Source: an uncultured Pelagibacteraceae bacterium
Lineage (GTDB): Bacteria; Pseudomonadota; Alphaproteobacteria; Pelagibacterales; Pelagibacteraceae
DNA length: 64,000 bases
Assembly (NCBI GenBank): GCA_902523495.1
Contig: CABYZU010000002.1
Location: forward strand, 1-64,000
Direction: 5' to 3'
Of the stretch, positions 14,396 through 21,453 are shown in pieces; the first letter of the stretch is position 1; every line of letters begins with the position of its first letter. Both the position numbers and the translations under genes were made by a program. The notes beneath the pieces are model-generated. The model saw only the letters and a program-made list of their open reading frames with translations, did not search any database and was not told the origin of the DNA.

Positions 14396-15886
14396 ATGAA
14401 CTTATTCTTTATACTGGGAAACCAATTATTTCCATCAAAATACTTAGATCGCTTCAAAAAAGACCATCTATTTTTCATGGCTGAAGATTATGAATTGTGT
14501 ACTTATGAAAAACATCATAAACAAAAGATACTTCTTTTCTTATCTTCTATGCGATCACATGCAGAAAGTCTTAAAAAAGATAAATTTAAATTAGAATATA
14601 TTAAAATTGAAGATAAAGAATTTAAAGATGATTATTTAAAGAAATTAAAGAGAATCATTATTTCAAAAAAAATAAAAGAAATTTCAAGTTTTGAAGTTGA
14701 GGATAAATTTTTTGAAAAAAAAATAAATCAATTTATTAAAAAAGAAAAACTAAAGTGGAATGTTATACAAACCCCAATGTTTTTAAATTCAAGAGAAGAA
14801 TTTAAACAATATTTATCTAAATCAAAAAAACCTTTTATGGCAACTTTTTATAAGGATGTCAGAAAAAAATCAGGAATATTAATGGGTTCAGATGGGAACC
14901 CTATAGGAGGTAAATGGAGCTTTGATGAGGATAATAGAAATAAATTACCTAAAAATATTTCTATTCCAAAATTTCCGAAAATTAATGAGACAAACCACAC
15001 AAAAAAATTAAAACCAATTATTGAAAAATTATTTAATGATCATCCTGGTAAAACAGATAATTTTTGGCATGCAACAGAATATAATGATGTCATTAAGCTT
15101 TTAAATTTTTTCATTAAGGAAAAATCAAATTTATTTGGTGATTATGAGGATGCAGTTGATCAAAAGGATAATATCTTATTTCATAGTGCTTTAAGTCCTT
15201 ATATAAATTTAGGCTTGATAACGCCTGAGTTGATTATAAAAAGAATACTCGATTTTCATAAAAGTAAAAAAATTAAATTAAATTCTTTAGAAGGTTACAT
15301 ACGTCAAGTAATCGGTTGGAGAGAATTTATGAGAGGAATTTACCAGAGTTACTCTAATGAAATGGAAACTGGAAATTTTTTTAAACAAAATAGAAAAATG
15401 AAAAAATCTTGGTACGAAGGAACAACTGGTTTACCACCACTCGATTATGCAATTAAAAACGCTCTTAATCATGGATGGTCTCATCACATTGAAAGGTTAA
15501 TGATTTTATCCAACATCATGAATCTATGTGAGATAAAACCAACTGTTGTTTATAAGTGGTTTATGGAAATGTTTGTAGACTCCTCTGATTGGGTAATGGT
15601 GCCAAATGTCTATGGGATGGGGTTGTTTAGTGATGGAGGAATATTTGCAACCAAACCATACATTTGTGGATCAAGTTATTTTATGAAAATGATGGATTTT
15701 AAAAAAGGTGATTGGTGTAACATAATGGATGGGTTGTACTGGAGATTTATTGATCGAAACAGAAAATTTTTTTTGAAAAATCCTAGACTATCCATGATGG
15801 TTAGAATCTTTGATAAAATGAAAACTGATAGAAAAAAATTAATTCTTCCAGCTGCAGAAAGATTCATTAAACAAAATACAATTTAG
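14396..15886 (+). CDS. Cryptochrome/photolyase, deoxyribodipyrimidine photolyase-related (FeS-BCP / PhrB-type) family
   Basis: N-terminal LGNQLFPSKYLDRFKKDHLFFMAEDYE; GYIRQVIGWREFMRGIY; HIERLMILSN; WVMVPNVYGMGLFSDGG; KPYICGSSYFMKM. Confidence 0.93.
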   Translation: MNLFFILGNQLFPSKYLDRFKKDHLFFMAEDYELCTYEKHHKQKILLFLSSMRSHAESLKKDKFKLEYIKIEDKEFKDDYLKKLKRIIISKKIKEISSFEVEDKFFEKKINQFIKKEKLKWNVIQTPMFLNSREEFKQYLSKSKKPFMATFYKDVRKKSGILMGSDGNPIGGKWSFDEDNRNKLPKNISIPKFPKINETNHTKKLKPIIEKLFNDHPGKTDNFWHATEYNDVIKLLNFFIKEKSNLFGDYEDAVDQKDNILFHSALSPYINLGLITPELIIKRILDFHKSKKIKLNSLEGYIRQVIGWREFMRGIYQSYSNEMETGNFFKQNRKMKKSWYEGTTGLPPLDYAIKNALNHGWSHHIERLMILSNIMNLCEIKPTVVYKWFMEMFVDSSDWVMVPNVYGMGLFSDGGIFATKPYICGSSYFMKMMDFKKGDWCNIMDGLYWRFIDRNRKFFLKNPRLSMMVRIFDKMKTDRKKLILPAAERFIKQNTI

Positions 15887-19468: not shown

Positions 19469-20608
19469 TTAATTAAAAGTTGAAATTATTTTGGGAATAT
19501 AATTCTTAAAATTAAAAAAACCTTTATTACAATATTGCCAAGAATACTGATCTAGTTTTCTATACAGAAAATCAAATTTTAAACTATTCGAATTTAAATA
19601 GTCCAGATTTTCACCAACATTTGGATATAACGCGAATACTCTTTCATTTATATTTTTAATTTCATTTATATCTATTGTTTCACAACTTATGGACTTATCA
19701 TTTAATCTTTGCTTTTGGTCATTAATTAAAAGTAATTTAAATTTTATAACATTTTCACTTAATTTTATAGATCTAGTTTCATTTTTATTTGAAATTATAT
19801 AAATCTTTTTAAATTCATTATTTTGGAAATCACTAGCTTCAAAAGATAAATTATTTTCAAAAATTAAAAGATTTCTATCATCTAAATTTTTATTACTAAA
19901 ATCTTGTTTGACAATTGGGTAAGTTTTTTCCGAAACCCTTGGGGGAGCGTTCTCATTTAACTTTATATTATTAAATCTATTATTTGTGAATTTTTTAATA
20001 TTCCATTCACTGGCTAGATAATGTTTTCCTTGCGTTTGAACCCCAGCTACCCATCTCCAACCAAGAGTGTTAGACGCAGCATCTCCATCATAAAGGTGTT
20101 GCATAAAAAATTCTGCTCCTAACTGCCAGGGCAACTCCAAAGTAAAAATCCAAATACTTGCGAACCACATTCTTGTATGATTATGTAAATAGTTGTTTTC
20201 TTTGAGTTCATTTACCCAAAAATTAAAACACTCAATATCTGTTTTCCCTTCAATAGCGTTTTTATAATTTTGGTTATTCTTAAAATCTTCTCTAATTTTA
20301 TTCAATTCAACCAAATAATCTGTCCAAACATTTGGTCTTAATTCTAACCAACCTTTCCAATAAGTTCGCCATAAAACTTCTTGAATAAATTTTTCATTTT
20401 TTGAAAAAGAAAATTTGCTGAGTGATTTCTCAATTATTTCTCTTTCGTTTATGACGCCATGGGTAATGTAAGGAGATAAACAGGATACATTGGTTCTCTT
20501 TTCTGGCCCAAAATCAAAATTTCTTAATTTAGAATATTCAGCAAGATTTTCTTCAACAAAATTGTTTAATTTATTTAAGGCTGCAGCCCTAGACGCTTCA
20601 AATTTCAT
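19469..20608 (-). CDS. Photolyase/cryptochrome FAD-binding domain protein without N-terminal antenna domain
   Basis: SCLSPYITHGVINEREI; LWRTYWKGWLELRP; HNHTRMWFASIWIFTLELPWQLGAEFFMQHLYDGDAASNTLGWRWVAGVQTQGKHYLASEWNIKKFT. Confidence 0.88.
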   Translation of the reverse strand: MKFEASRAAALNKLNNFVEENLAEYSKLRNFDFGPEKRTNVSCLSPYITHGVINEREIIEKSLSKFSFSKNEKFIQEVLWRTYWKGWLELRPNVWTDYLVELNKIREDFKNNQNYKNAIEGKTDIECFNFWVNELKENNYLHNHTRMWFASIWIFTLELPWQLGAEFFMQHLYDGDAASNTLGWRWVAGVQTQGKHYLASEWNIKKFTNNRFNNIKLNENAPPRVSEKTYPIVKQDFSNKNLDDRNLLIFENNLSFEASDFQNNEFKKIYIISNKNETRSIKLSENVIKFKLLLINDQKQRLNDKSISCETIDINEIKNINERVFALYPNVGENLDYLNSNSLKFDFLYRKLDQYSWQYCNKGFFNFKNYIPKIISTFN

Positions 20609-20614
20609 TTTTAT

Positions 20615-20995
20615 TTATTTTGATTTTTTTTTCTTAAGACCAAGTTTATCACTATGTCTTAATCTAAGAATAACAATTGCACCTGCAATCAATACTATAG
20701 CAATAGCTTCATAAACTAATGCTGTTGGATCCATTTCTTTTCCTTGAAGAATTATAAATCTCGCTAGAGCTGTAATAGCTATTAAAAGTGGCAATGTAAT
20801 GCTTATTGATTGTTGGTTCCAAAAAACTCGCACCATTGCAAGTACTTCTAGGTAAAGAAACATTAATAGTAAATCAGCTAAAGTAACTGACCTGTTTTCA
20901 AACATTTTATACATCTCTATACCCACAGCAATTACTGTACTTATTAAAATAATAACCATTAAAATAAGTTGTAAATTTTTTGCTACTTTTTCCAT
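20615..20995 (-). CDS. PsiE-like membrane protein
   Basis: Hydrophobic, LADLLLMFLYLEVLAMVRVFW...LLIAITALARFIIL pattern of phosphate-starvation-inducible PsiE family. Confidence 0.75.
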   Translation of the reverse strand: MEKVAKNLQLILMVIILISTVIAVGIEMYKMFENRSVTLADLLLMFLYLEVLAMVRVFWNQQSISITLPLLIAITALARFIILQGKEMDPTALVYEAIAIVLIAGAIVILRLRHSDKLGLKKKKSK

Positions 20996-21453
20996 TATTT
21001 GTCTTTGCTAAATGGCAACCATTTTTCAAATACTGATTTTGATGAACCATCGTATGGTATTGAATAAGAGTAGGGGTTTGGACTTGTTAGAACTTCAATT
21101 CCCTTTGAAAATACGAATATAAATACGATTACAAAAACTAGGACCATAATTTTAAAGGGGTCAAAATTTTTTGTCTTAAAAACACTAGATGAATTTTCTT
21201 CAGCCCTGTGAAAATGTTTAAAGGTCATATACACAGCAAAGATCAAACCAATATGAGCTAAAAAAAGTCCAGTCCAACCAAATACAAAAGTTGTGTATGA
21301 AAATACGTATAAACTAAAAACTGTTGTCCAAATAAAGCTCAAAACTAATAAAATTTGCAACCTAACAGTTTTAGGAAGTGAACGTAGATCATTTTTACTA
21401 TCGTCAAACAATATGTTTGCTGTATCTTTCATCCAATTTCTAAATGATTCCAT
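20995..21453 (-). CDS. 2TM/multi-TM hypothetical membrane protein
   Basis: 152 aa with three hydrophobic segments; abuts the PsiE-like gene. Confidence 0.6.
   Translation of the reverse strand: MESFRNWMKDTANILFDDSKNDLRSLPKTVRLQILLVLSFIWTTVFSLYVFSYTTFVFGWTGLFLAHIGLIFAVYMTFKHFHRAEENSSSVFKTKNFDPFKIMVLVFVIVFIFVFSKGIEVLTSPNPYSYSIPYDGSSKSVFEKWLPFSKDK

Follow-up and report, generated by a model that had tools for sequence, protein, structure and literature searches.

A gene in the analysed stretch of Pelagibacteraceae DNA (the window, 64,000 nucleotides) very probably encodes a photolyase of the NewPHL class, with a likely role in DNA repair and a tail that would be a relocated, degenerate relative of the antenna domain. 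The protein places its FAD domain first, carries the conserved active-site residues, falls into one clade with other FAD-first homologues and ends in a tail with an antenna-like fold. The layout is unusual but not new, having been published in 2020 for the NewPHL class (also called SPL, and Phr7 in Prochlorococcus). The first-pass annotation had suggested a possible domain permutation while allowing that it might already be a standard photolyase subclass. The latter proved to be the case, since the architecture is that of the described NewPHL / Phr7 class (PMC9426592, PMC13274461).

Gene layout and conserved residues

The features of the gene are listed in Table 1. The open frame reaches just two codons 5' of the ATG (381 aa from stop to stop), and neither an in-frame upstream antenna domain nor a frameshift was found. 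Therefore, no antenna domain is concealed upstream in this frame. FAD_binding_7 was the sole Pfam match in the protein (residues 74-198, E 1e-16) and covered only positions 1-127 of the 203 in the profile, while NCBIfam photolyase models matched well below their cut-offs. The tail gave no match to Pfam and nothing significant against the PDB by sequence. Together, the Pfam match, the upstream frame and the structure model described below bear out the initial reading that the frame opens directly in the FAD domain and lacks an N-terminal antenna. Given that the whole length including the tail is kept open across genomes and in diverse Alphaproteobacteria, this layout is neither a chance open frame nor a frameshift artefact.

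Table 1 Features of the NewPHL-type gene in the window
Feature	Residues	Coordinates	Strand	Basis
Whole gene, very probable NewPHL-type photolyase	379 aa + stop	19469..20608	(-)	Full-length orthologues
N-terminal FAD/DNA-binding helical domain	1-210	19979..20608	(-)	FAD_binding_7, PDB class I homology, AlphaFold2, Foldseek
HNHTRMW motif	142-148	20165..20185	(-)	Alignment to 1owl/1tez; invariant 26/26
W161 + W184 (Trp dyad), N180	161-184	20057..20128	(-)	Aligned with 1owl; invariant 26/26
C-terminal alpha/beta Z-domain, including short lead-in	238-379	19472..19897	(-)	AlphaFold2, Foldseek, Phr5 profile match
Z-domain end motif DxxxWxxxxxGFFxFKxxIP	353-372	19493..19552	(-)	Conservation, n=26

In the alignment, E77, W80, N143, M147, N180, W161 and W184 correspond to E283, W286, N349, M353, N386, W367 and W390 of 1owl (numbering of 1owl taken from the alignment), and all of them were invariant among the 26 sequences. 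We take the roles of these 1owl positions (CPD contacts, the Asn beside flavin N5 and the Trp chain) to be established knowledge. N143 and M147 take the places of the Asn and Met that contact the CPD in class I photolyases, and N180 that of the Asn beside flavin N5. The alignment (n=26) had no third Trp of the kind that completes the class I triad, and none of the 26 sequences contained the RIFNP segment found after the triad in class I enzymes. Between residues 190 and 245 the window protein has no cysteines and the other alignment rows have at most one. Likewise, the window protein has none of the Phr4/Phr5-type Fe-S cysteines, which follow the FAD domain as CxxC...C.

These residues also bear on whether the protein still repairs DNA. 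A cryptochrome-like light sensor that has lost its repair activity could be accommodated in SAR11, where repair is covered by other photolyase-family genes (in this genome one that is PhrB-like, 4 kb away, and one of class I, on contig 8). However, the family keeps E77, W80, N143 and M147 of the CPD site without exception and published members of the NewPHL class repair CPDs, which makes such a sensor very improbable.

Fold and origin of the C-terminal domain

With an alignment of 26 family members as input, AlphaFold2 modelled the whole protein at a mean pLDDT of 95 and a pTM of 0.93. The model predicts the helical domain at residues 7-207 and a strand-helix pattern from residue 246 on, with alpha/beta domain strands at 246-249, 269-273, 309-313, 324-327 and 346-348. 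All four segments that had been named as alternating C-terminal strands from the sequence were predicted as the first four of these. In Foldseek, photolyases and cryptochromes matched the whole model over about 215-235 columns. Modelled alone, the tail reached a pLDDT of 91. Its best matches in the PDB were bacterial (6-4) photolyases and a related cryptochrome (9q8f, 9hnk, 5lfa, 4dja, 3zxs; probability 1.00, TM-score at most 0.58 on the query, E 0.0036-0.02), and viral photolyases were among the top matches to viral structures. The structure prediction and Foldseek search proposed in the first-pass annotation have accordingly been carried through, with the tail modelled as a folded alpha/beta domain and photolyases leading the PDB list. 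As Foldseek prints no matched region, it is from length and fold that the region matched by the tail would be the N-terminal antenna domain of photolyases.

The tail matched with weak E-values, and the photolyases are followed in the list by stress proteins and other alpha/beta folds. Both points would suit an alpha/beta domain without relation to antennas, such as one of the universal-stress-protein kind, that was fused to the FAD domain independently of them. Against this reading stand profile comparisons with Phr5, the antenna domain that is adjacent or fused to FAD-first Phr4-type proteins in some Alphaproteobacteria and Deinococcus. In hhalign, the Z-domain and Phr5 profiles matched end to end over 121-122 columns, with probabilities of 62% and 86% in the two directions and scores of 33-39. 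Among the controls, 200 column shuffles of Phr5 scored at most 18.8 (33.2 observed), reversed profiles less than 13 and unrelated families drawn from the loci no more than 18.4, the latter being a limited null of few families (about 17), mostly SAR11-only. A cluster of PhrB-like FAD domains scored 26.4 over only 43 columns.

Compared directly with class I antenna profiles, the Z-domain gave no match (2%), which again would favour an unrelated fold. However, Phr5 itself matched the class I antennas at 96%, and the link from the Z-domain to the class I antenna thus passes through Phr5. PhrB-type and class I antennas, both accepted antenna domains, matched each other at less than 1%. With photolyases heading the PDB list, present among the viral top matches and joined by the Phr5 match well clear of its controls, an independently acquired domain is unlikely. 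Instead, the data support the tail as a putative alpha/beta domain related to antenna domains through a remote match (best Foldseek E 0.0036, hhalign 62-86%). Of the proposal that the tail is a displaced or replaced Rossmann-like antenna domain, the antenna relation is upheld by Foldseek and by the controlled profile comparisons, while the architecture turned out to have been described before.

The conservation of the Z-domain bears on whether it still acts as an antenna. If the Z-domain still bound a light-harvesting pigment, the protein would be a full two-pigment photolyase in reverse order, a reading in keeping with the relation of its fold to antenna domains. However, identity with more distant Alphaproteobacteria is only 13-28% in the Z-domain versus 45-58% in the FAD domain, and the end motif alone is kept, rendering this reading quite improbable. 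Within the motif, G363 and F365 are invariant and D353, W357, I371 and P372 are conserved to at least 90% (n=26). The retention of this motif alone would be expected of a contact surface, not of a site that holds a pigment.

More tentatively, and at perhaps a little short of an even chance, the Z-domain may be a true antenna-domain descendant that moved to the C-terminus in a single relocation recorded by both NewPHL and Phr4/5/6, the NewPHL copy having then lost its pigment site and become a lid over the FAD. If true, the NewPHL class would be derived and would not stand near the common ancestor of photolyases. Through its profile match to Phr5, the Z-domain offers a testable origin for the odd domain order; apart from this link, our analysis adds members to a widespread class described in 2020.

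Distribution and genomic neighbourhood

The nearest named records of the protein were Pelagibacteraceae (SAR11) single-cell genomes and MAGs, 'Candidatus Pelagibacter' and HIMB114. Across 60 related genomes, 24 keep its whole length including the tail as an open frame (52-88% identity). Full-length orthologues were present in 22 of the 36 genomes from the same genus, many of which are incomplete, and in 2 of the 24 from another family in the order. In sunlit seawater, few bacterial groups are as abundant as SAR11. Considering this abundance and the full gene in 22 of the 36 same-genus genomes, NewPHL-type repair is likely to be common in the ocean.

In a sample drawn from the phylum, 13 of 299 genomes matched at E 1e-25 (the window's own included), all of the same class. 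Full-length homologues were also present in plasmid records of Niveispirillum, Novosphingobium, Peteryoungia, Asticcacaulis and Ruegeria, where those annotated are called 'FAD-binding domain-containing protein'. Viral contigs contained no match to the protein, and phage records aligned with no more than about half of the query, at 24-32% identity.

A tree of 56 FAD domains placed the window protein inside a clade of 27 FAD-first proteins (support 100/99), including those of Ruegeria, Asticcacaulis and Novosphingobium. The full-length homologues in this clade come from Rhodobacterales, Sphingomonadales and Caulobacterales. Class I (12), Phr4 (9, support 89/85) and PhrB-like (8) proteins formed separate groups, and this tree does not settle which of Phr4 and class I is the closer to NewPHL (86/34). 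Judging by the relatives from related orders and by the features published for the class, the clade is probably also that of the characterised NewPHLs, D. shibae A8LJA9 and M. mesophilicum M7YZC8.

Upstream on the same strand lies a gene for a PsiE-like membrane protein (PF06146, 20615-20995), with the photolyase gene 6 bases downstream of it. It is overlapped by a gene for a 152-aa membrane protein (20995-21453, (-)) that matched UbiA only below the cut-off and has relatives in 47 of 80 genome loci. Neither neighbour is an antenna domain, which settles the check for a split antenna upstream that had been advised at the outset. Phr4-type proteins are FAD-first relatives with Phr5 next door, as in loci L051-L054, and by that precedent the window protein could be one half of a split two-gene photolyase with its antenna protein encoded nearby. 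This was contradicted by the PsiE-like neighbour, by the tail that already fills the Phr5 position and by the place of the window protein outside the Phr4 group in the FAD-domain tree. In addition, no Phr5 match was found in the window's genome (about 76% complete). Taken together, a split photolyase is hardly credible.

Elsewhere, a DUF3429 gene adjoins the NewPHL gene in Asticcacaulis and Novosphingobium (L136, L137), and genes for UbiB-type kinases lie near it in Ruegeria (L135) and Asticcacaulis. The window also holds a second photolyase-family gene, 14396-15886 (+), which is PhrB-like and encodes a DPRP domain and FAD_binding_7. Its product is without all four Fe-S cysteine positions of seven other alphaproteobacterial PhrB-like proteins, the loop with two of these cysteines being deleted. 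This loss parallels the published Prochlorococcus equivalent.

Proposed function and relation to known photolyases

By analogy with published members of its class, the window protein most likely performs light-driven CPD repair with a preference for single-stranded DNA, the tail closing the FAD pocket. The N-terminal helical domain would bind FAD and the lesion. The Z-domain, as a putative relocated and degenerate relative of the photolyase antenna domain, would stand in for the last third of the usual FAD domain, which is missing here, and close the FAD pocket. Blue light would excite the reduced FAD, which would then give an electron to the cyclobutane pyrimidine dimer and split it, most likely in single-stranded DNA, and the flavin would be re-reduced via W184 and W161. 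In the abstract of Emmerich et al. 2020, the C-terminal domain is reportedly described as closing the FAD site. We infer the CPD specificity, the single-strand preference, the sealing role of the tail and the lack of a working antenna pigment from the published class.

NewPHL or SPL proteins have an inverted domain topology and repair CPDs in single-stranded DNA (PMC13274461), and PMC9426592 names Emmerich et al. 2020 as the source for the finding that the class repairs CPDs in single strands. The NewPHL protein of D. shibae has a Trp dyad (PMC8948257) and an Asn at the flavin is conserved in the class (PMC12083526), while Phr7 of Prochlorococcus combines an N-terminal FAD domain with a C-terminal Z-domain and has no Fe-S cysteines (PMC9426592). 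The window protein has the FAD domain first, no N-terminal antenna, a Z-domain in the same chain, no Fe-S cysteines, the Trp dyad and the Asn, and so presents every NewPHL class feature that sequence can show; the Z-domain itself has no library profile, and was recognised from the structure model and from the class as published.

Class I CPD photolyases (1owl, 1dnp, 1tez) share the homologous FAD domain and the CPD-site residues, but differ in their N-terminal antenna, their longer FAD domain with the RIFNP segment and their Trp triad. Phr4/Phr5 and Phr6 of marine Synechococcus and Cyanobium (PMC9426592), with equivalents in L051-L054 and L138, resemble the window protein in placing FAD before the antenna and in a Phr5 profile related to its Z-domain. 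In contrast, they have a full antenna domain, usually as a separate gene, often carry CxxC Fe-S cysteines and form a distinct tree group. A full antenna (Phr5), fused or adjacent, was not found for the window protein, as the tail had no Pfam antenna match and no Phr5 gene neighboured it. The alphaproteobacterial Phr4-type FAD-first proteins of L051, L052 and L142-L144 are without the CxxC Fe-S motif present in L053, L054, L138 and L140.

Phr7 of Prochlorococcus, likened by description, has the same N-terminal FAD and C-terminal Z-domain, the same lack of Fe-S cysteines and a marine surface-water host, but that host is a cyanobacterium. Compared with the NewPHL proteins of Emmerich et al. 2020, which are likened by their published features to a protein known here from sequence, no difference was found. 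The window protein shares with them the leading FAD domain, the terminal Z-domain, the Trp dyad, the flavin Asn and the alphaproteobacterial distribution.
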